NCBI GenBank assembly: GCA_963971285.1
Contig: OZ020259.1
Location: 3,224,001 to 3,288,000 of the forward strand
DNA length: 64,000 nt
DNA from: Astropecten irregularis
Taxonomy: Eukaryota; Echinodermata; Asteroidea; Paxillosida; Astropectinidae
Direction: 5' to 3'
Below are positions 9,483 to 63,044 of the stretch, one piece after another; the stretch's first letter is position 1, and the number at the start of each line of letters is the position of its first letter. Below the pieces are notes generated by a model that was not told where the DNA came from, ran no database searches, and worked only from the letters and a program-made list of their open reading frames with translations. Position numbers and translations under genes: made by a program.

Positions 9483-10247
9483 GGTAACGCGTGGTATATG
9501 ATCCAGCCCCCTGTGGATACCATGGTAAATTATGGTAAGCAGCAATTGTCTTGTGTGGTAGGTGAAGAGGGTTAGGGTTAATATCCAGTTCCCCTATGGA
9601 GACTGTGGTAATGTGTGGTAAGCAGCTCTTGTCTTGTGTGATATTTGCAGAGGGTTAGGGTTAATATCCATCCCCCCTGTGGATACTGTGGTAATGTGTG
9701 GTAAGCAGCTCTTGTCTTGTGTGATATTTGCAGAGGGTTAGGGTTAATATCCATCCCCCCTGTGGAGACTGTGGTAATGTGTGGTAAGCAGCTCTTGTCT
9801 TGTGTGATAACGTGCTGAGGGTTAGGTTTAAAATCCAGTCCCCTTGTGGAGAATATGATAGCGTGTGGTAAGCAGCTCTTGTCTTGTGTGGTAGGTGCAG
9901 AGAGTTAGGGTTAATATCTAGTCCCCCTGTGGAGACAATGATAGCATGTGGTAAGCAGCTCTTGTATTGGGTGATATGTGCAGAGGATGAGGGTTAATAT
10001 CTAGTCCCCCTGTGGAGACAATGGTAGCATGTGGTAAGCAGCTCTTGTATTGGGTGATATGTGCAGAGGATGAGGGTTAATATCTAGTCCCCCTGTGGAG
10101 ACAATGGTAGCATGTGGTAAGCAGCTCTTGTATTGGGTGATATGTGCAGAGGATGAGGGTTAATATCTAGTCCCCCTGTGGAGACAATGGTAGCATGTGG
10201 TAAGCAGCTCTTGTATTGGGTGATATGTGCAGAGAGTAAGGGTTAAT
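9483..10247. repeat. 83-bp minisatellite, about 9 copies, with telomere-like motif
   Basis: The unit recurs every 82-84 bp, with phase-matched starts near 9571, 9654, 9737, 9821, 9904, 9986, 10069, 10152 and 10235. Each unit contains GGTAAGCAGCTCTTGT, CCCCCTGTGGAGAC and, in the first copies, GGGTTAGGGTTAATATCC. The last four copies are nearly identical, which suggests recent expansion at the right end. There is no open frame across it. Confidence 0.95.
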
Positions 10248-11134: not shown

Positions 11135-11189
11135 CTAACCGTGAGAGGGCACTGACTGAACACAAACCTATAATTAAGGCGATAGAACC

Positions 11190-12017
11190 ATGAAACTTCA
11201 TCATTTGATGGATAACAAAATCGGTCGAGCAATCTGCGGAGAGTTTCGTCTGCGGCATGACGACGTCTCGCGCGCCTGCGCGGCAGACGCGGGGCTGGAA
11301 ATGGCGGGAAAACTCGACCACCACCATCAACTGGAGGTGAACGCAAACAAGACGTACGGTGCATCACACGGATCGCAGACGTCACCCGTTTCGCCGTACA
11401 ACAACGATGATGACGGATTCAACGACAACAACGCTGAGGATCTGAAAGGCTCCGCGGATCTGCTGGATGTGTGCGGGCTGGTGACCGAGGACTCGGGCAT
11501 CTCGGAGAACTCTCTCTGTCTGACGGAGGAGCTGGAAGCGGAGAAGATCCTTGATGACATCACGGAGAGGGATGAGTCTATCGATGATGTCACAGACTCC
11601 GAGGAGTCAAGCGCGGCTTCGACTAACGGGGCTCGAGACCGGGCCACCAGCCTGTGCTGCGCCGGCGACAGCTCGCGGACTATCGGTCAGATCAGGGAGA
11701 GTTTAGAGCAGAAGGTCCGGCGGCTGCGGGACGAAAAAGCTGCAGTGGACGAGAAGATTCGATTAGCCCAGGAAGAGGAGGACCTCCGCATGCGCGAGAA
11801 GAACAAGCTGAAGCAACAGCTCGTGGTGCACCGGAGAGACCGCCTGAAAAAGGTGATCGCCGAATTGAAACGGAAACTGGAAGACCAAAGCATTCGACTG
11901 CAGGTGACATACAGTACTCTCATCTCGCTGCAGAGAAACATTTTTCGGCACAGGAGCTTCAGCCACCCTAAGCCATCGCACAATCCAAGAGACTCGTCGT
12001 TGGAGGCGCCCTTCTGA
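11190..12017 (+). CDS. Unrecognised coiled-coil protein (275 aa)
   Basis: I do not recognise this family. The start has A at -3 (AACCATG), and the same frame carries a TAA a short way upstream, so translation most likely begins here within a spliced exon starting at 11099. Residues 1-70 are low-complexity with a His-rich patch. Residues 75-155 are strongly acidic and Ser-rich (ILDDITERDESIDD, DSEESS), as in regulated scaffold proteins. Residues ~162-245 form a charged heptad-like helix (IRESLEQKVRRLRDEKAAVDE ... LKKVIAELKRKLEDQ), predicted to be a coiled coil. The tail is basic and Ser/Pro-rich (RHRSFSHPKP). There is no signal peptide or membrane segment, so the protein is likely cytoplasmic or nuclear. 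Codon usage is GC-rich relative to the flanks, and antisense frames over the same bases are shadows. CAG|GTGACA near 11903 could be an alternative donor, but the frame stays protein-like beyond it. Confidence 0.8.
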   Translation: MKLHHLMDNKIGRAICGEFRLRHDDVSRACAADAGLEMAGKLDHHHQLEVNANKTYGASHGSQTSPVSPYNNDDDGFNDNNAEDLKGSADLLDVCGLVTEDSGISENSLCLTEELEAEKILDDITERDESIDDVTDSEESSAASTNGARDRATSLCCAGDSSRTIGQIRESLEQKVRRLRDEKAAVDEKIRLAQEEEDLRMREKNKLKQQLVVHRRDRLKKVIAELKRKLEDQSIRLQVTYSTLISLQRNIFRHRSFSHPKPSHNPRDSSLEAPF

Positions 12018-15069: not shown

Positions 15070-16330
15070 TCACTCATAATGACTGGAGTTGAGTTGAGTC
15101 ATTCTCACATAATGACTGGAGTCGAGTGAAGTCATTCTCTCATAATGACTGGAGTATAGTCTACTCATTCACTCATATGACTGGAGTCGAGTCGAGTCAA
15201 TCGCTTGACTGGAGTCAAGTCGAGTCAATCGATTATGACTGGAGTTGAGTTGAGTCAATCGATTATGACTGGAGTCGAGTTGAGTCATTTATTTATAATG
15301 ACCGGAGTTGAGTCGAGTCAATCACTTCTGACTGGAGTCGAGTCGAGTCATTTATTTATAATGACTGGAGTTGAGTCGAGTCAATCACTTCTGACTGGAG
15401 TCGAGTCGAGTAATTCATTTATAATGACCGGAGTTGAGTCGAGTCAATCACTTCTGACTGAAGTCAAGTCGAGTCATTTATTTATAATGACTGGAGTTGA
15501 GTCGAGTCAATCACTTCTGACTGGAGTCGAGTCGAGTCATTTATTTATAATGACTGGAGTTGAGTTGAGTCAATCACTTCTGACTGGAGTCGAGTCGAGT
15601 CATTTATTTATAATGACCGGAGTTGAGTCGAGTCAATCACTTCTGACTGGAGTCGAGTCGAGTCATTTATTTATAATGACTGGAGTTGAGTCGAGTCAAT
15701 CACTTCTGACTGGAGTCGAGTCGAGTAATTCATTTATAATGACTGGAGTTGAGTCGAGTCAATCGCTTATGACTGGAGTCGAGTTGAGTAATTCATTTAT
15801 AATGACTGGAGTCGAGTCGAGTCAATCGCTTATGACTGGAGTCGAGTCGAGTAATTCATTTATAATGACTGGAGTCGAGTCGAGTCAATCGCTTATGACT
15901 GGAGTCGAGTTGAGTAATTCATTTATAATGACTGGAGTTGAGTCGAGTCAATTGCTTACGACTGGAGTCGAGTCGAGTAATTCATTTATAATGACTGGAG
16001 TCGAGTCGAGTCAATCACTTATGACTGGAGTCAAGTCGAGTCAATCGCTTATGACTGAAGTCAAGTCGAGTCATTTATTTATGATGACTGGAGTCGAGTT
16101 GAGTCATTTATTTATAATGACTGGAGTTGAGTCGAGTCAATCGCTTATGACTGGAGTCGAGTCGAGTAATTCATTTATAATGACTGGAGTCGAGTTGACT
16201 AGTCAATCACTTATGACTGGAGTCAAGTCGAGTCATTTATTTATAACGACTGGGGTCAAGTCGAGTCAATTGCTTATGACTGGAGTCAAGTCGAGTCAGT
16301 CACTCATAATGACTGGAGTCGATTCCTGGC
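15070..16330 (+). repeat. 63-bp GAGTC-rich minisatellite with a 391-codon open frame
   Basis: About 40 subunits of the form ATGACTGGAGTCGAGTCGAG alternate as 30-bp (ending CAATCACTT or CAATCGCTT) and 33-bp (ending CATTTATTTATA) versions, giving a 63-bp higher-order period. Because 63 is a multiple of three, one plus-strand frame stays open from 15205 to 16380 and would encode a monotonous MTGVESSQSL / LTGVESSHLFI repeat. The first ~130 bp are less regular. I treat it as satellite DNA: the predicted peptide has no flanking unique domain, no splice context and no signal peptide. Expression has not been excluded. Confidence 0.9.
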
Positions 16331-16585
16331 GATTCAACTTTTTGCTCGCTGTGAGTCCATTATTGAGTCAAGTCTTTTAATTTCTCGGAGTGAGTGCAAG
16401 CCACCTGACTCCACAATTAGTCATGTAAATAAAGGAAACGTGTGTAAATTTGTAGAACAGTGTTTTTTTTTACACAAAGGGTTTCAAAATTATACGAGGA
16501 ATTCATTAATTGGAGAAGGTATGGTGTTTACTTTAATAAGTCGGTTTATAATTGCCCCTCCCCCTCCCCCTCCCCCTCCCCCAAG

Positions 16586-33165: not shown

Positions 33166-33297
33166 AACAAATTTTACTGTTTGTACTTCAGAAATTCACT
33201 CATCAAATGCAAACCTGCATGTAAGCCCAAGGTGCCTTCCACTTTATATACTGTAGCTCAATTTAAACAACATTTGAATTGAAATGAGACCTACCTT
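33166..33297 (-). other. HIVEP 3'UTR start with possible splice donor at the stop
   Basis: Immediately after the stop codon (33300-33298) the minus strand reads AAG|GTAGGT, with the GT at 33294-33293, a good donor consensus. If it is used, the 3'UTR is spliced. If not, the 3'UTR simply continues toward the tRNA-like fragment. No clear AATAAA was seen close by. Confidence 0.4.
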
Positions 33298-36200
33298 TTA
33301 AATAGTTGAAATCGCTTCCGCTGCATCCATATCTCCAGCCTCACTAGCACTGTCTGTCTTGTCTGATGACCCAGCAGGGCTGGATGGCTGATGAGAGTCA
33401 TCGATGACGAGGTCTCCTTGCTCCATGTCTGACATCTCCTGGCACAGAAGCTCCTCCTTCGGAACGGGCAGCTTACCCTCCCTCTCCAGGGTCATCCGGT
33501 GACCTCTTGACCTCAGGTGCTTCGCAAGATGACCGGGGATCCGGAAGGCGATCTGGCATTCCTTGCACTTGAAAGGCCGGGGGTCGCTCTCACCCGAAGC
33601 CGAAGGCAGTTCGACGGCATCAACCTTGGAGAGGTGCTCCTCCGATCGCTCGTGCTTGGCCAGTAAGATCCTCGTCGGGAAGGACAGCACACATTCTGGA
33701 CACAAGAAGGAGTTTTCTTCCAGATGGATGCGCATGTGTATCCGCAGCTGGCTTGGCTTCATGAATACCTTGTTGCAGCTTGAGCATTTGTGATTGCCTA
33801 GGTGGGTCGGCGAGGACACCAGTTCCTCAGAAACTTCAAGCGGTATCTGATCCCCTGATGCTTGCTGTCTATCAGCGATGGAGTGAGACTGAGGGAAGGT
33901 CCACTGAAACTGAGTCTTCGATCGAGCAACAGGTGGGACAAATGGTATCGGGGAGTCCCTATGTTCGTCCCTCAGAGAAAAACCTGATGACTGCACTGTA
34001 GGAGACCTGACTTGAGACAGAATCGTTGGAGGGAGTTGCATCATTTTTGATGGTACCATTGGAGAGACGAGTGGTGGCTGAAGAGAACTAGTCACAGACA
34101 CAGCCACACTGCTCTTGACTAGTTTAGGCGATACCAGGGACGGTGGCAGGAAAGGCGAGAAGAAAGAGGGCTTTGGACTTTCATGCGAAACAGGAAGGAC
34201 CGATGGCTTGGCTAACAGCAGCTGCTTAATAGCGCTTCCTGGTTTCGACATCCATGAAGGAACAGATGATGGAGAGTTCACCGATGGGTTGTTGATGCTT
34301 CCAGACACCATGATGCTATGCTCCTGCGGATTCAGTTTCTGCCTCTTCCTAGGGCTGTTTTGATCTTCTTCATCAGATATGGCTTCAACACAAATTGGCG
34401 GCGGAATAGGTTTCCCTGTCTCGCCAGCCACATACGAAGAAGCAGCTGGACTTGCATGAACCCTTGGGGAAAGCTGTGGCTTGATTTGGGAACTCGGCGA
34501 CACGGCCGGAATTGCACGACTGGCATTCAGACTGGATGCGACAGGGCGTGAGCTGTCTTGGTAAGCAGAGAGGAAAGGAGGGGACATCATTCTCTGCAAA
34601 TGTGGAGACACTCCAAAGCTGCCTTGGTAAGGCACTTGCTGGGCCCCCAAGGCAGCTCGTGCCTCACTGGACACTGGGTAGTTAGGAAACAGGTGCATAT
34701 CTCTGCTCGGAATGGCATGCATTGTGTTCACTCCAACAACTAGGTTTGCTGCTCCTGGTGGTATGCTTACACTTGAGACAGGTGTAGGCTCATGGTGGGA
34801 TGGATAGCCAGATGAACTGGTTGCTTTGGTATCAGTATGTAGAACACCAAGTGATGACAAACTGCTTGGAGCCTGTACAAGATTTGGCACGTGTTCTTTA
34901 GGGGATGATGTCCCTGAGGTAGTAACAGGAGAAGCAGCTAAGGTACATCCAAGCTTACTGTGAAGGAAGGGAGATCCCGCTGTGAGGAATTCAACATTAG
35001 GCTGAGGTTTCCTCGAGAGCTGCTTCTCTAAACTTGCCAGAGGTGGAACTGAGACTGGTGGAGTAATGCGGCTCTCGATGTTCCCGTTGCTGGGTCTGAG
35101 CTTATTCTGGGAGTGGGGGTTTTCCTGTACGGTGGTTGACAGACGATACTGGCTTGTCGATGAATTTGACGTTGTCAGTACGATGTGCCCGTACTTGTCC
35201 AGAAGTGGTGGCTTTGGAGGGAGTCCGTCAACTTTGCTACTAGGAAACGGTGAGACGTTTGTCAGTTTTGTTGGCTGAGGCAAAAGACCTGGATGAAAAG
35301 GTGGCAGTTGCGATAAGTCAAATAGCTTGCTGCTGTCATGGCCTTTGATTTCTCCAGGTTTTGCTGGGGTGGACACGCCAGCCTTCTGTGCTTTCTCAAG
35401 ACTCTGCTGATGCCTATTCGTCAAGTGACGACTCAGCTTTCCAACAACTTCAGACCGCGAGAGCTTGACTGGCTGCTTATCCTCGGCCATTTCTTTCGAA
35501 TTTCCACCACTCTTGGAGGAATCAAAGGCCGAGATGGAACCCGTTGAGTCCCTCCGGGGTCTGTCGTGGGTTTCACCGTGGCCTCTTTTCATGCGTGCTT
35601 GGTCGTACTGGTGCCAGACCAGAGGGCGTCCTTGAGCATCAACGCTTTCGGGCATGTCTTGGATGTTCGGGACAGAGCTGTACCGTTCCCGATGAGGAAC
35701 TACACCACTAACAGGAACTGCACTCTCAGAATGAGTTTCAGAGATGTCGTCATCCTCGTCTTCATCCTCATCTTCATCAGAGGTTTCACCATCTGCCGAG
35801 TCTGTGTCCTCATCATCTGCATCCGAAAACTGATGCTCCATGCACGATTCATCGGTGGCAGAGATCCCGTTCTTGGTGCATTTCTTGCTGTGCGCTTTGG
35901 ACTTCATGTGCTTCGTGAGGTTCCCTTTGGTCTTGAAGGCAAAGTTACAAATCTGACACTGGTACGGCCGCATGTCTGTGTGTGTCCGGATGTGTTTCTT
36001 CAGCATGCTCGGCTTCTTGCAACGGATCCCGCATTCTTCGCAGACATACTTCCCACGGCCTCGTCCACGGACGTAGACGTAGTTCTCATTAGACTTGTAG
36101 CCTCCGGAGAAAATGGGGATTCGGCTTGGCAAACTCTGGTCGGAAGCTTCTTTCGGCTTTTTCTCTTTGGCTTTGAATGCGTCAGTTTCAAGCGCGGATT

Positions 36201-39200
36201 TTTCAAGAGTGCACCCGGCATCCATTGATTTCATCGCGGATGTATCCATCATCTCAGTGTGTGGTCCTTGACCCTCTGAATGAGGCTGACTGTCGGCTGT
36301 TTTGGGGGCAGTTTCAGGTCTCCAACCAGCTGAATCCGTGACAACGCCACCTTGCGGAGGTGAGATACTCGTTGTCACATAGTAAAACTTTGGCTTCTTG
36401 TTCCTCCCTGTATCGTACAAAGCGAGATGGGCCTTCCAAGAGATGCCCAGAGGATGGGGGCAGTTTCCTCCAGGTCTCCAGTTAGAATACATCGAGATCT
36501 TCCTGTTACCTCCTTGCTGGACGTACATCGGCTGAGGACGTTTCACGCAGCAGAATGTGACCTGTGTGATTTTGGAATTGCGGGCCGTGCTTCGCGACAG
36601 TTTGGAGCATCTGATCTTATGCCTCAATGCCGAGTTTGTCTTGACGTGGTTCATTATGTGTGCCTCAAATATTCCTTGACAGTCAGGTTTCTGAGGTGGG
36701 ACACGTTTGAAGTGAGGAGCACAGTTGGTAGTGACAACCGCTTGATCTGTCTGAGGTTGGGAGGTTGCCAAGGGACTTCTCAAGGGCGAGACCAGAGATG
36801 ATGCTGTGGAGGCAGTGGGAGAAAATAAAGTATTTGGCCCTGGGAATCCAGTTGGAGCTTGTGATGAGGACGGTGATGGAATGATGAAATACTGCGTTGA
36901 GCCACTACCGGATCCTGGGGTAGGGGTAGCAATTGGACCTATCATCATCGTGCCTTGCGTGGAGGTTATCAGATTCTCCACTCTTCCACCTGCGTTGAGG
37001 TAAGCGTGTGCCATCAAACGTCCAAGCTCACGGGCTGACTCAACTGGAGTTATGGGAGTATTTGCTTTCATGGGAGAGGCAAGTTTCATCACCGACTCTG
37101 CAATTGACAGTGCTTCAGGCGTCAAGAGACTCTTAGGGTCGATCTGCAACAAAGACTTTGAAGCCTCGGAGGCCCCTGGTGATTTTACGCGTGATGTGAG
37201 GGGCGACTTGAGGTCTAAAGTTAGATGACGTCTGGAAGCCGGGATTCGAGGCAGACTAGTCGGACTCTGCCGATTGGCATCGCTTCTAGGGGATCTGGCA
37301 TCACTTCGAGGTGATTTGGGACTGACTGAGTTCCTTTCCATTTTTATTTTCTTCAGTTCTGGTGATCCGATTTCTCTGTGCTGCTTCAACTCCGGGATTG
37401 CTCGTGGGGACTGCATGGGAGATTCCACAGATAGACTTCCTGGAGGACTGCTCTTCCTCGGAAGATCTGGCAAAGACTGTGGGGTCACAACAGGTTCAAC
37501 TGTAGGTCGACTACTGTCCGTAACTCTTGGGCTGACTCCAGGAACATACGACGAACTGTGGGCAACAGCTGCAAGTAACTGCATAGCAATTGGGGCTGCA
37601 TTTTCACCCTCCTCAGTTGATTTTTTCTTTTCCGCCTTCAAGATAGGATCTTCTCTTGGCCACGGAGATGCTAATTGGGATTCCTGTTTCGGAGCTGTTG
37701 GTATTCCCTCTGTCAGTGAGAAACTGCGCTTCCTGTTAGCCATCTGGGTTTGAGGAGACACGTCTTGGCTTTTTGAAGCTACGGCCAACAGATGAAGACC
37801 TTGACTAGCAGGAGAACCAGCTCCTGGACTTTGCGCTGGGGCAGGAAATCGATACGGCCATGGGTAAGTAGCAGGGGGCACCTCTTTTGCTTGGCTTACT
37901 TCGAGCTTCAGCTCTTTGTTGGCTGGTTCACTTTTGCCCTGCATCCGGGTGTGTTGAATAACTGACACTTCAGACACAGATGGTAGTGGTTGGGTGTAGA
38001 CGCTTGACACATGAGTCGCTGGGATGGAGCTCGGGTGAAATGAGACGGCTGATGTTCCTTGACCTGGAAACGGCTTCTGGAGAACAGGAGGAGAGGTAAG
38101 CTGCCTGGTTTGTGATGACGCAAATCCTGGAACCGATGAGATGGGGGTTGGGTAAAGTGGAGTGTGACCTTGCATGGTAGCCACATTGCTTGTCAATGCT
38201 GTCATCACATTTGTCACCGATGTCACGCGGCTTTGCATTGATGCCATATGACTCTGCATTGATGTCAGATGACCATGTATTGAGGGCTCCTGACTCATGG
38301 TGGTCACAGTGTCGAGGCTTGTGTGCCGTGCCGGATAGCCTAACTTTGAATAAGCTGCAGTAAGATGAGTTGATGCAGTTGGTAGTGGACTTGACATAAA
38401 ATTACCATGAGGACTTGCGCCGCTCTTCAAAATAGCATCCTTCTGATGTTCTGTCGGAGTTCTTGATGAGGTAAAAGTGGCAGACTGATTCCTGACACTG
38501 CTAGTAGCAAGTGGGGACACAACAGAAGGAATGTCTTTAATTTTTCTGGCTCTTCTCTTGGGAGATGAAGGACCTGATGTCATGGATTCTCCTAAGGCAT
38601 CGCTCTCGGATTTATACTTCCTCCTCCGTCCAGCCCCTCTCAGCTCAGAGATCCTCTGGGATATGTTTACATCCTCTGTAGCATTATACAGGGCAGGGTA
38701 CATCTGATTGGGCGGAGCTTGCATGAAACGTCTTTGCTGCTGCAAAGTCCCTCTTAACTGACTCATAGCAGAGTCAGTGCCATGTGGGATAGGCCAAGGC
38801 GTTCCGGGAATAATGTTCATCCTAGGAGAACCTTGCCCCGCTGGGGACTCTCCAGAAATGAGAGCAGGTGTCTGTTGGGCTATCTGCGCTAGTCTATGCT
38901 GCCTGTCTTGCATTAAGAGGTCTTTTATCGAATTGCTGTTATCACTGGGATTTCCGGCTTGCTGGTTTGAAGTTTCCATCTTCACAGCTTGGTGGTCACT
39001 CATTGGAACCAGTATGTGTTTATCGGCTCCAGGAGTGCCAACCAAGGAGCTCTGTTGCTGGGATTTCAAGACTCTTTCTAGCAAGTTTGATTCTCCTGGC
39101 AGCACATATCCCCTTGGTGAATGGGACACCAAGGTAGGGGATTGAGCCTCTGACAAAGAACCTCTCCTGTAACGCAGTGATGGGTTAACAAACTCGGGGT

Positions 39201-41657
39201 AAGCTGAACTTTGAATGCTCCTTCCATCACTGGACCTCACATCACTCGCAGGGTCTAAAGAGGACTCTATCTTGGGAGAATTGTTTTCACTGTCTCGGCG
39301 TGAAGCACTGGTACGTCTTGGTTTGACAGATTCAAGCACAGTATCATCCACAATTGCTCGATTTTGAGAAATCAAAAGCTGGATTCTTTCCTGCAGACTC
39401 TCTTTGGAAACGCCTTTTGTCTGGTTGGAGATGCTTCCCGAACCCTCAACAGCAGGGCATGTTTCACCCTCAAGACTCATAGTCAGTGAATCTTCAGGGA
39501 TTCCTTGCACAGGAATCTGTACATGATACTGACCTCCAGACTTGACAATATTAAACCCTGTTAGAGGAATAAGAAGTTGTCCAGGGTTTGATGATGACTC
39601 TTCTCCAGACGGGTTTGAGGAGGGAGATCCTGGAGTTCCAAGCTGTGGATTTAGGACAGGGATGGCTCGTCTGGTTTCCATGTCGATCCGGAATCCAGCC
39701 AGTTCTCCAGGAAGGATGGATTTTAAGAGCTGGCTGGAAGAGGCTCCTGATGCTGACATTACCACCTCTTCATCATTTCGGTTCTCCGCTGCCTGATGTC
39801 TGTCTTGATAAGAGGAGTTAGTCTTTGGGATATCAACAACTGATGCAGATGGTGCTGAGGATGATCGGCCACCTGACGAAATATCAGATGATCTTGAGGA
39901 CTGGTTTGGGAGTAATGTACTCAGTAGTGGCATATCCCTTTGGATATTAGCTGTCGGTAGTACTGAATTTAGGGTGGGAACCCAGCTGCTGGAATGTCTC
40001 GAGATGGCTTTCTGGTTACTTTGGCTGTCTGCTTGCTGGCGGGGAATATTTGGTACTGCAGCAAGGCTACTAGTTACTTGCATCATGGGAATGTTAGATG
40101 ATTTGGCAGTTTTGCTCTCCGGTGAGATTCTCGTCACTGATTCAATCTCTGAATGGGGTATGGAGCCAACGTGAATGTGGGTGTCAGGGTGCGAACATTT
40201 TTCGGTTAGTTCTGTCTGGCAGGTTGTGGCATCGCACGTTGTAATCTCATCCTCACTCTCTGTCTCCTCAGAATCATCCTCATCAAGTTCCGCCAAAGCT
40301 AGCTTGGATAGATCTTCGGTGTTGGGTGTGAGCCCAGCCTTGATGGCATGAGCATGGGTCTTGCAGTGCTTGTACAGATTGCTTTTCGTCTTGAAGGAAA
40401 ATCCGCAGGGCAAGCAGGGGTAAGGACGCTCCCCAGTGTGGGACCGGATGTGTTTCTTTAAAACACTTGGTTTTGTACACCTACGTCCGCAGAACTGACA
40501 GACGTGGCGTCCGGGCTTCTTACAGCACTTCTGTGAATCTTTGGCAGTGGTAAGGTCTTCGGCAGAATCGGATGCATTGCTCTTGGTGCTATTTTTACGT
40601 GAGCGATTGTAAGCATTGTACTTGAGCTGTTCTTGGGTCGCATGACTGACACTTTGTGCTGTGTAGACCAGTTTCAATCCCTGCTCTTCCAGTGAGTCCG
40701 ACTGCAGGTGGTATTTCACGACTCCTTTGTCCGTCTCACTTATTTTGACCATGCCGCCTTTGTGCACACCAGAGAGTGAGGTTTGGGGGGCAATGTGCGT
40801 CGATGAAGTAGTCACTGTTGTTAACCTTACATTGGTATGTGGATCGGTTTGCGGTTTACATCGGTTTACATTGGTAGTTGGGGTTTGATCAGTGGTTGGG
40901 ACTTTGCTCATTGTGTGTAATTCAACGCCAGTTATCTGCAGCAAAGCCTCTAGCGCTTGCTGTTTGGACTCCTGGGATGTTGGAATTCCCTCAGACACGG
41001 AGCGCTGCCGGCCTTTGACTATGTTAGCAGTCCGACTGATCAAGTCCTGGTTGTTTAATTTCCCAATTTCCCTCTCCGATAGCTTTCTCTGAGCATAAGA
41101 CAGCTTCGGTTTGGGCGATAATGTCACGGGAGCTGGTTCAACCTTTGTAGGACTTCTCTGCAAGTGGATTTCTGGCTCCTTAACAGGTGAAACCGGGATC
41201 TTCTTTGGACTCTCCGAGCCTTTCTTAGGGCTGCTCTCAACGTCTTTAGCTTTGTCCTTGTCCTGGGTTGTCTTTTTGACTTTGGTTGCCCGTAGAAGGC
41301 TCCTCTCCTTGATCATATCATACTTGTCCTTAAAATCTGAAATGTCGAGGGCAGGTTCAGATCCCACCTCTGCCACCAAATTCGGGGAACTCAGCTCCTT
41401 AATCTCGGTGAGCGGCGTCTCGTTATTGTTTGAGTTTGGACTGAGATTCCTGTCCTTGACGGTGGAATCCTGGCTGACAGGGAATTCCGTCCCTGGAAGA
41501 AGAGCCTTGATCAGGCGATTGGTGCGTACCTTGTTGGCGATCTTCACTTTTGTGGCGTTCTTGTATCGGTGACGTTTCTTTCCCTTGGCACGTTTGGCCT
41601 TCTCCACGGCAGATGAGACATCAGGGTGCTTTGTCGATTTAGCAGATTGAGGTCCAT
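33298..41657 (-). CDS. Schnurri/HIVEP zinc-finger transcription factor, giant exon 3
   Basis: This exon carries codons 35-2820 of a predicted 2820-aa protein (numbering includes exons 1 and 2). It is a large nuclear DNA-binding protein of the ZAS family, which in other animals acts with SMADs in BMP/Dpp signalling. The acceptor TTTTTTTTCCCAG precedes 41657. In order: a basic N-terminal region (KAKRAKGKKRHRYKN); first ZAS finger pair, residues 421-471 (Cys421/424, 449/452), with an acidic tract after it; a conserved block ~785-825 (LQERIQLLISQN, ESVKPRRTSASRR); a long Ser/Pro-rich disordered middle; a conserved block ~1730-1780 (ITQVTFCCVKRPQP, HPLGISWKAHLAL); second ZAS pair, 1907-1957, preceded by YVYVRGRGRGKYVC and followed by a run of Asp/Glu; and a third group of three C2H2 fingers at 2659-2754. 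The GTG at 41607 is not the start, because the frame is open back to the acceptor. The stop is TAA. Confidence 0.97.
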
Positions 41658-43358
41658 CTGGGAAAAAAAAGAAGAAGATAAAAACGAGGATCAGACGTAG
41701 TTCAGTATGAATACATGTACATGTACAACAAATGTTTTCCGAAATGCATTGTACATGAAGCCGAAATCAGCACTATGTACAGTACGTAAATCGACACATT
41801 TGTGGACACTACAAGTGTGTACAACTGTACATACATGTACTTGTAAATTCATTCCCAAGTACATGCACACAGGCCTACATGTACAGGTATGTACAACAGT
41901 ATACTGTACAGTGTACATGTACAGTATGTAATAGGCCTATTCATTGTGTATGATTGTAGCACACATGTATGCAACATACTGTATGTACATGTACATGTAC
42001 AATGTATGTGTACGTTCATCCAACTTTTTTGACAAGCATGCAAATTTTGGATATTCTGAATAGAGTACAATAATTTGTAATAATCAGCAACGAAGACAGT
42101 GTGTACCCATAGGCGTTATGCATAATGTTCATTTGTAATGTATCACGTACATGCGTGTCCCAGTACATGGTGTATGTACTTCTTCCTTCCGTCATGTAAA
42201 CACACAGCAAAAAACACTGACTGTTTACTGTTTGCATAACAGTGTGACAAAGCAAGTATTCTACATCTACAGTATATTCAGGTTTTTTGCATCAGTTGGT
42301 CGGTCTACAGGAACAAAATGCATCACTCTTCCTGATATTCAGGAAGTTTGAAATTCCTTGTAAAGTACATGTTGTACATGTTCACCTGTTGCACTGTACA
42401 CTGTTTGGGAACATATGCAGGTGTACAAGAGATCTGGTCAGGTAGAATTCACAGGTCAAGTATTTCTGATTTTCAAATGACTATACACTTTTTTTGTATA
42501 ATGCCTGAATGCAGGAACGAAGTGCCTTTGCACATGGTTCATGTACATGTACATGAACACATTTTGTTCACTTGGCCAGTTGAATGATCTGCCAGTGCAT
42601 CAAGTTTAAAATCTCTGTGCATCAAACATTTACAAATTGTGCAGTAGTAGTAGTACTGCACTTGTGTCCTTGAGCAAGACATCTTGACATTAATTGATCC
42701 TCTCAGAACAAAACGTAATTTGATGTGCCTTTGTGCATGTACATTGATGGCTAAGGGTACACAAATCACTTCACTTGCAGTATATTAAAGTAAAGTTACA
42801 ATAGTTTCCGAAGATGTACGCACACATACAGTACAGCGCATGTTGGGACATGCCAAATAATTTATCTTCCGAAAAACCATGCCTAGTCATTGTTAGTTTA
42901 ACGGTCGATCATTTCAATAAATTGCACTTTGGCTCCAATGTACATGTATGATGTAGGAAGCATTTGGCAAGCACAAACAAATTTCAATCTGTCTTCTATG
43001 AAGTGCCATCTTTTTGGCTGGAGCAGCACAGCTTCAATGTAGAGCCAAAACAAAGTTTGAGTTTTCAAATGCTTTTAGGTTCCATCAAAGCCAAATATGA
43101 CATAAAGCATGCATCTATAGTTAAGCCTTGGAACAAACATTTTATCATAGAATTGGAAGGTCCAGTTTCAATGAGTTTTACTTTTTAATAAATTTTGTTT
43201 CAATTATTCAGTTTGACAAATTTTGCCCAGAGTTCGATTTTCGATTGTTCAAACATTAAAATGAGTAACAGGCGGCCCCAGCAATTACATGTATAATGCC
43301 CAGTGAACCGAAAAAATGACCTAAGAACGATTAAAAGAAATTTTCTTAAAGAACTTAC
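41658..43358 (-). other. HIVEP intron 2, TACATG-rich
   Basis: This is a GT-AG intron of 1701 bp between the donor AAACAAG|GTAAGT (43358 side) and the acceptor at 41658-41659. It is filled with TACATG/TGTACA short repeats, especially 41700-42020. No additional exon was seen. Short frames on either strand are repeat-derived. Confidence 0.85.
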
Positions 43359-43421: not shown

Positions 43422-43734
43422 CTACAGAAAAAAAAAAAAAAAAAAAAACCAAAATGATTAAAATGTTGATGAGAAAAAGAAAAGTACATACATGTTCATG
43501 GCATATGCTGTATCATTTCTGGTGAGCCACAATTTGTGTGTTTTCAATGTGTGTGTGTAGCAACCAGAAACAATACATGTACCATGACTCCATAATATAA
43601 CACTGTAGTACAGTGCGGGAGAATGCACACATTCAGTTTTTTTCCCAACATTTACTGTGTAATACATAAAATTTACGGATGTAGTCATATTTACATGTAC
43701 ACTAGAAAACAAGAAAGATTGATTTCACATACTG

Positions 43735-43935
43735 TGCATGTACAGTACAGTACATGTAACATGTACATGTATACGTGTACATGTATACGTGTACATGTAC
43801 TGTAGGTCTACATGTGGGCCTGTACATGTACATGTTACATGTACAGTACAGTACATGTAACATGTACATGTACATGTATACGTGTACATGTACTGTAGGT
43901 CTACATGTGGGCCTGTACATGTACATGTACTGTGA
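43735..43935. repeat. Tandem duplication (about 100 bp x 2) within the TACATG cluster
   Basis: The blocks ACAGTACAGTACATGTAACA and CTGTAGGTCTACATGTGGGC appear twice in the same order, near 43741/43842 and 43799/43892. The copies differ in the number of ATACGTGTACATGT subunits. Confidence 0.8.
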
Positions 43936-45211: not shown

Positions 45212-45624
45212 TCCCTCATACACAATCCACATTGCTAAATAGCATCATTAAAATGTCACAGTAATCTGGGCCATTAGCGTTATAGCAGGGCTGTGATTGT
45301 TTAAGTTTGCATTTAAAAAAAAAAAAACTGAAAACATACAGGTGTAGCCAAACAAACTGAAAATCACACGTTTCCAATACTTTTGTAAAGTCTGAATGAG
45401 ACCAAAAAACATGAAATCAGGTGGTTTTTTTTCCAGAAAAATCACATCCCTGGTTATTGGGACGCCGCTTCAAAATTCTGAAATAAATGGCTGTGATTGG
45501 TCAGAATCAAATGGGGACTGGGGTGGCGCTTAATGGATCGGTCTGTTGTACATTTAAGCCTACAGTATGTACATGTACATGTACCAAGTTCAGAACCTCC
45601 ATCCATACACCCACTAAAGATTGT

Positions 45625-61430: not shown

Positions 61431-62369
61431 CTATGCACTGCCTGACCCCAGCGCCGTCAGCTCCTGTATCACCACCGAGAGCGCAGGGCGACTGCTGGGC
61501 CGCGACTTGTAGCAACGTGAGCCGAGATCCTTCAGCTGCTTCTTGAAGTGGCTCTCCTCGGCGATCTGCAACATGAGGAAGCCCAGCGCGTATATGTCGC
61601 CCTGCACGCTGTAGTTCCCGGTCCCGGTGATCACCTCGTAAGGAACGTGGGGGAAGGTCTTCAGGTTCTCCCGCTGCTCGGACTTGGTGAAATTCAACGG
61701 TCCCCTGGGTTCGGTCATCCGGCAGGCCATCCCCATGTCGATGATCTTGGCCCTCCACATGAGGTTGGCCTCCTGCACCAAGAGGATGTTGTTGGGCTTC
61801 AGGTCGCAGTGCAGGTAGTTCTTGGAGTGGATGTGGGCCAGTCCTTTGGCCACGTCGTTGGCGATCCACACCCAGTTGTTCTTGAAGGCCATGTGCTTGT
61901 TGACCCTGAGGGCTCCGGCCACGGTCAGGCTGAGCATGGACTTGGTGTTGCCGACGAATTCCTGGACGATGGCAGGCATTTCCCCGCCTCTGATGGCGCC
62001 GTAGAGCTTGGGGAAGGCCCAGTGGTCTTGGCACATCTGGATGATCTTCATCTCCTTCCAGACTTCCTCCTCCTTGACGTACACCGGGTTGCAGGTCTTG
62101 ACGGCCACCAGGGGTCTGGCAGGGCTTCGCAGTCGCATCAGGCGTACCTCGCCGAAGGATCCCTTGCCGAGGGTGATCGGCCGACCGCTGGTGGTTGGCT
62201 CCTCGAAATCAACCTCCTGATACATCCGGCAGGTCAGCGCCTGCATGACGATGTTGTTGCGGGTGATGGGCACCGTTGCTACCTTGCCTGGTTCTGGGTG
62301 CTGTGGCTTGGAGGGGCGGGGAACTTGCCGCAGTCTGTGACCTTGCTGTTGGTCTGTCGCGGCGTTCCC
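61431..62369 (-). CDS. Protein kinase, non-RD type: terminal kinase-domain exon
   Basis: This exon encodes 312 residues plus a TAG stop and begins in phase 0 after a TTTTTGTTACAG acceptor at 62370. The protein kinase fold is clear: glycine loop GKGSFGEV (62168-62145), VAVK with the ATP lysine, an alpha-C glutamate in EVWKEMKI, catalytic loop HCDLKPNN with Asp at 61805-61803, DMG in place of DFG (61739-61731), PYE in place of APE, GDIYALGF in subdomain IX, and the closing Arg in SRPALSVVIQEL. Catalytic Lys, both Asp and Asn are present, so activity is plausible. The HRD arginine is Cys, making it a non-RD kinase, a class often found in innate immune signalling. It resembles kinases of unknown role expanded in several invertebrates. 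Ser/Thr specificity is suggested by DLKPNN. There is no transmembrane segment in this exon. Confidence 0.92.
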   Translation of the reverse strand, partial: GNAATDQQQGHRLRQVPRPSKPQHPEPGKVATVPITRNNIVMQALTCRMYQEVDFEEPTTSGRPITLGKGSFGEVRLMRLRSPARPLVAVKTCNPVYVKEEEVWKEMKIIQMCQDHWAFPKLYGAIRGGEMPAIVQEFVGNTKSMLSLTVAGALRVNKHMAFKNNWVWIANDVAKGLAHIHSKNYLHCDLKPNNILLVQEANLMWRAKIIDMGMACRMTEPRGPLNFTKSEQRENLKTFPHVPYEVITGTGNYSVQGDIYALGFLMLQIAEESHFKKQLKDLGSRCYKSRPSSRPALSVVIQELTALGSGSA

Positions 62370-63044
62370 CTGTAACAAAAATATCATAGAAGGTTCGATA
62401 TGTATGCTCGCCCAAGGCCCGGAGCTGAGACAAGTGCCGCGAAAGGTTTGCTCCCACAAGGACCGAGCGGAGATCTGTACGCGAATGAGGACTGCTTGGC
62501 ATGGAGTACATCTCGCCGTTTACTCCCGACCAACGTTTCTCCAATTTTGTAGATATCTTTCAAAGATTTAGTTGTTCAACAATGCAGATGTAATCTTTTA
62601 TCTTTATCTTTTCATCTTTGAGCTTTGGAGAACCGAACATGGTCATAGTTTATCCAGTAGTGGCTTGTGAAGTATTTGACGTTCTGCAATCTGTCACCGT
62701 AAAGCCACGCGAATTATGTTGTAGGTCGACCAAATGTTTTAATGTTAGCTTACAGTAAGTTTGAACAAGTTTGTCAGCGTTTCAATATGGCAACTGGCGA
62801 TATCTTCTCACTATCAAACAATTCTGGAGGTCTGGATGTTCAAGACAAAAGCTTTTGATAAAATGTTGATGATATTATGTCATTGTCCTTTATAGACATG
62901 ATGAAAGGATTCGACGAGGATTGAATGCCATTAATCGAAGTCCATGGTTTTCACTTTTGAACAGCTGCATTGGCAAGTGATATCCTGTATTTAGCGTGAT
63001 TCTGAGTATTCCAGCTAAAAATTCATCTTGTCTTGACATTATAC
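62370..63044 (-). other. Kinase gene intron
   Basis: A GT-AG intron of 675 bp between the donor ACAAAG|GTATAA and the kinase-exon acceptor. No other feature was seen. Minus-strand frames read through the acceptor are artefacts. Confidence 0.75.

Follow-up and report, generated by a model that had tools for sequence, protein, structure and literature searches.

A Schnurri/HIVEP gene with two ZAS zinc finger pairs and a C-terminal finger triplet in an invertebrate, probably a deuterostome

The 64-kb window, i.e. the whole stretch of DNA that was analysed, carries on its minus strand a large single coding exon of a Schnurri/HIVEP gene, in which a strict C2H2 pattern recognizes exactly seven zinc fingers, arranged as two ZAS pairs and a C-terminal triplet (Table 1). 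This arrangement agrees with the original prediction, in which the residue numbers were 2 too low and the window coordinates of the triplet (33490-33800) were correct, the triplet running from 33786 down to 33499. Considered as a whole, the layout is probably best explained if the triplet is the counterpart of fingers 6-8 of Drosophila Schnurri and of the triplet of C. elegans SMA-9, serves in Smad docking and was lost in vertebrates. A known family gains one member, and the implication for its evolution is useful, the mechanism itself not being new.

Table 1. Features of the Schnurri/HIVEP exon, with positions in the window
Feature	Residues	Position	Strand	Basis
Schnurri/HIVEP large single coding exon		33298..41657	-	ORF and splice consensus (the latter for the predicted exon start)
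Donor-like AAG/GTAGGT directly after the stop codon (GT starts 33294)		33289..33297	-	Consensus only
First ZAS finger pair	423-473	40348..40500	-	C2H2 pattern, Pfam zf-C2H2 (whole protein)
Acidic stretch after first pair, 32 percent D+E	474-520	40207..40347	-	Composition
Second ZAS finger pair	1909-1959	35890..36042	-	C2H2 pattern, alignment to 1bbo
Acidic stretch after second pair, 45 percent D+E	1960-2010	35737..35889	-	Composition
Triplet finger 1, H-x3-H	2661-2681	33724..33786	-	C2H2 pattern
Triplet finger 2, H-x5-H	2689-2711	33634..33702	-	C2H2 pattern
Triplet finger 3, H-x5-H	2734-2756	33499..33567	-	C2H2 pattern, Pfam

Structure of the coding exon

The open reading frame (ORF) extends from stop to stop over positions 33298-41766 (2822 amino acids) and is closed by a TAA codon at 33298-33300. 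Before base 41657 there is an acceptor site with phase-1 entry, TTTTTTTTCCCAG/AT (the slash marking the splice position), in which a long pyrimidine tract ends in CAG, and this splice consensus suggests that the exon starts at base 41657. From there the exon comprises 8360 bases, i.e. ~2785 uninterrupted codons, and the first ~36 codons of the 2822-codon ORF are probably intron. As the first Met of the ORF appears only at residue 151, the start codon is probably supplied by an upstream exon. A protein of 2820 amino acids had been predicted, which comes close to the length of the ORF, but the protein does not correspond to the bare ORF, as the exon is predicted to begin at 41657. At the other end, the donor-like sequence directly behind the stop codon may possibly mark an intron in the 3'-UTR.

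The triplet and the second pair share one open frame, and 863 stop-free codons would occur by chance with a probability of ~6e-20 if stops were as frequent as in the adjoining DNA (0.05). When the protein was shuffled (n=2000), the C2H2 motif was found 0.0025 times on average and once at most, as compared to the seven motifs observed. The single open frame and the protein shuffles together rule out that the arrangement is due to chance or to an assembly artefact, and the frame held in common with the second pair rules out that the triplet belongs to a neighbouring gene.

The ORF of SMA-9 is distributed over 25 exons according to the available excerpts of PMC2904332. In the primers for finger 5 of fly Schnurri, CAACTTCAG is followed by a donor and TTTTAAGACCAAGGGAAATCTG is preceded by an acceptor (available excerpts of PMC10853822), which we read as an intron of the fly gene within the CNFS-FKTKGNL segment of this finger. 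Unexpectedly, the homologous finger here (35890-35958, minus strand) is uninterrupted within the 8.4-kb exon, so that at least this intron was lost in this lineage, unless it was gained in the fly line. The unsplit finger would also be expected if the exon were a retrocopy or another intron-stripped copy, with the canonical, intron-bearing Schnurri located elsewhere in the genome. We regard such an origin as unlikely, since the exon has a good acceptor consensus at its 5' end and a donor-like site after its stop codon, its ~2785 codons are without frame damage, and the 5.3 kb downstream contain only two A-runs of at least nine bases, both lying over 3.6 kb away from the stop codon.

Zinc fingers and family membership

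In a query of solved-structure sequences with the whole protein, human HIVEP1/MBP-1 (PDB 1bbo) ranked first of 263 (E up to 1), the alignment covering all 57 residues of the chain from end to end; in the two alignments printed, 1bbo reached 100.2 bits, whereas the chain in second place had 40.6 bits in its best stretch. Residues 1906-1962 are identical to 1bbo at 50 of 57 positions, and one of the seven differences is C1916, where the chain has an A. Based on this rank, score and identity we take membership in the HIVEP/Schnurri family, which the original prediction had proposed, as settled. The protein exhibits two widely separated C2H2 pairs, as do human HIVEP1 (MBP-1/PRDII-BF1), HIVEP2 and HIVEP3, and next to each pair there is an acidic region, which is part of the definition of the ZAS type. 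The family may additionally contain a solitary medial finger, which is of the CCHC type in vertebrate HIVEPs. Both HIVEP1-3 and Drosophila Schnurri (finger 3) possess this medial finger, whereas strict and loose finger patterns revealed no convincing candidate beyond the seven fingers in the exon described here. According to the available part of a Daphnia survey, the family generally has two pairs and a solitary medial finger, the latter being missing in some homologues (PMC2889900).

The profile zf-C2H2 of Pfam matches the whole protein with an E-value of 2.7e-24, six stretches passing individually, and matches a 141-residue piece containing the triplet with 1.2e-14 and three stretches, while a scan of the whole protein against NCBIfam returned no family. 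Finger 1 of the triplet has KPS at the start of its helix, just like the first fingers of the ZAS pairs, and the H-x5-H ending of fingers 2 and 3 resembles that of the second fingers of the pairs. The linkers within the triplet are of unequal length, fingers 1 and 2 being 7 residues apart and fingers 2 and 3 being 22 residues apart.

Outside the ORF, the C2H2 pattern occurs twice in the six frames of the window. The occurrence at 35655-35723 (plus strand) contains an internal stop, and the one at 45511-45573 (minus strand) lies within GTACAT-rich repeat sequence and is taken as a chance match.

Origin and possible function of the triplet

Drosophila Schnurri contains, apart from pairs 1,2 and 4,5, the C-terminal fingers 6-8, which dock on Mad-Medea at silencer elements and are needed for Smad-dependent silencing, whereas vertebrate homologues are reported to be without counterparts of these C-terminal fingers (PMC10853822, Toraason et al., available excerpts). 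The original prediction had stated both points, and the excerpts bear them out. Unlike the vertebrate HIVEPs as reported there, the protein in the window has three C2H2 fingers C-terminal of both pairs, and in number and place its triplet equals that of the fly. SMA-9 also has a finger triplet among its seven fingers, and constructs without it fail to rescue the worm, the domain being called critical in Drosophila as well, but the order in SMA-9 is pair, triplet, pair instead of pair, pair, triplet, which counts against a shared origin (PMC2904332, available excerpts). In the part of PMC2889900 that was available, the extra C-terminal fingers of the worm protein are counted as a pair that bears little resemblance to the other members, and the fly triplet is not mentioned. 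Schnurri is named among the bilaterian-specific zinc finger proteins in the accessible text of PMC7535936, and the accessible portions of PMC3009687, PMC5892016 and PMC10847725 hold nothing on a triplet in deuterostomes. A full-text literature search, which covered few subscription papers, yielded no paper describing the triplet outside flies and nematodes, and peptide strings of the protein were found in 0 papers.

We consider it quite likely that the triplet is homologous to fly fingers 6-8, an assignment that is suggested by family membership and by the order, number and position of the fingers. Comparison with solved structures did not favour this assignment, as the triplet looks like a set of generic C2H2 fingers. 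Other C2H2 proteins, with ZNF568 in first place, score above the HIVEP1 pair, which is partly due to their many fingers. With the whole triplet as query, 1bbo came 41st among 257 matches (E up to 10), with fingers 1-2 it came 50th among 139 (E up to 0.01) and with finger 3 it came 16th among 215 (E up to 10). The original prediction had named a better alignment with an unrelated zinc-finger family as a refutation, and this ranking comes close to that case. It does not, however, decide on the homology, as C2H2 fingers match many proteins and the best 60 matches of each triplet search included no chain with the name Schnurri. In three scans of viral and two of prokaryotic contigs no relative was confirmed. 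An AlphaFold model of the triplet alone, predicted from the single sequence, had a mean pLDDT of 37.4 and was discarded without a fold search.

Alignments within the protein bear on a different origin. Triplet fingers 1-2 can be aligned without a gap to the protein's own second pair (20/58 identical residues, 34 percent, 40.0 bits), and the overlapping fingers 2-3 align to it with a 17-residue gap (21/78, 41.6 bits), which would fit a triplet derived from ancient duplicates of such a pair. This is how duplicated fingers would behave if a ZAS pair and one further finger had been duplicated independently in this lineage, in which case the likeness to fly and worm would be convergent, and the different order of the finger groups in SMA-9 (PMC2904332, in excerpt) points in the same direction. 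Nevertheless, such an independent gain appears unlikely, as the number and the C-terminal place of the fingers equal those of fly fingers 6-8; moreover, in a pairwise comparison of the fingers the ZAS pairs share 12/17 and 11/17 core positions with each other, and the 34 percent found for fingers 1-2 suggests, by comparison, that any duplication is old.

Assuming homology to fly fingers 6-8, the following scheme may be envisaged, by analogy with the known family members. The gene would encode the Schnurri/HIVEP protein of an invertebrate, probably a deuterostome, the two ZAS pairs of which may bind κB-like DNA. The C-terminal triplet, as the putative counterpart of fly fingers 6-8 and of the SMA-9 triplet, would dock the protein on phosphorylated R-Smad/Smad4 at a correctly spaced silencer-type element, and other parts of the protein may recruit co-repressors, so that BMP signalling would turn the target gene off. 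We infer DNA binding by the pairs, Smad docking and repression in this animal from this analogy. A search of the protein for the co-repressor patterns PxDLS (CtBP-type), WRPW and EH1-like gave no match. With the helix positions numbered by the usual convention, finger 2 of the triplet has I-L at positions 2-3 and finger 3 has I at position -1. Such residues might suit a surface for docking better than one for reading bases, but this argument is weak, as position 3 is occupied by V or M in the first fingers of the ZAS pairs, too.

As a triplet is found in fly, worm and this animal and none is reported in vertebrates, it is most simply regarded as ancestral, with a single loss, and the step that places the loss in vertebrates requires this animal to be a deuterostome. 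The bilaterian ancestor would then have possessed the triplet, and it would have disappeared on the way to vertebrates, where the HIVEP proteins would act without it. It is less likely that the animal is a protostome, e.g. a lophotrochozoan, in which case the triplet would extend a protostome feature and would have no bearing on a loss in vertebrates. The excess of the palindrome TAGGCCTA in the window (see below) is a lead towards a deuterostome. Of the original proposal that an ancestral triplet was lost in vertebrates, the gene and its triplet layout are thus established, and ancestry and loss are favoured rather than demonstrated. In flies, BMP signalling silences genes via Smad-Schnurri complexes on silencer elements, for which the form GNCGNC-N5-GNCTG with a 5-bp spacing is given, whereas in vertebrates the BMP targets that carry elements of this kind are said to respond by activation. 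As a cause, it has been suggested that the Shn proteins of vertebrates may no longer repress, owing to changes in their sequence and/or to missing downstream components (PMC4161316, available excerpts). It is plausible, and in our view somewhat favoured, that the gene described here is a deuterostome Schnurri with the full Smad-docking triplet of the protostome type, which would make BMP-dependent silencing via Schnurri ancestral to bilaterians. If true, vertebrates would have lost the docking module before or as the three HIVEP paralogues arose, and a BMP repressor would have turned into κB-type regulators and activators. An invertebrate deuterostome with a docking triplet would help to date the loss and would offer a species for testing the ancestral mode.

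Other features of the window

Searches of the 64-kb window with Rfam (gathering thresholds) and ARAGORN returned 0 matches and 0 genes, respectively, and Pfam was run on 10 of the 527 listed frames. Upstream of the Schnurri exon and on the same strand, a 362-residue frame at 61434-62519 (minus) matches Pkinase with 2.8e-27. A frame of 279 residues at 11178-12014 (plus), the C-terminus of which looks coiled-coil-like by eye, matches DUF4653 with 4.6e-05 and 23.6 bits, i.e. below the 27-bit cut-off. Three tandem arrays are present, with units of 83 bases (9501-10247, 9 copies), 63 bases (15079-16319, 19.7 copies) and 93 bases (43733-43928, 2.1 copies, GTACAT-rich). The second of these is overlapped by a frame of 399 codons with TGVESSQSLL-like repeats (15181-16380, plus), which is probably no gene. 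The palindrome TAGGCCTA, which is common in echinoderm and hemichordate DNA, has 10 matches in the window vs 0.44 expected from shuffles, and GTACATGTACATGTAC occurs four times vs 0 expected.
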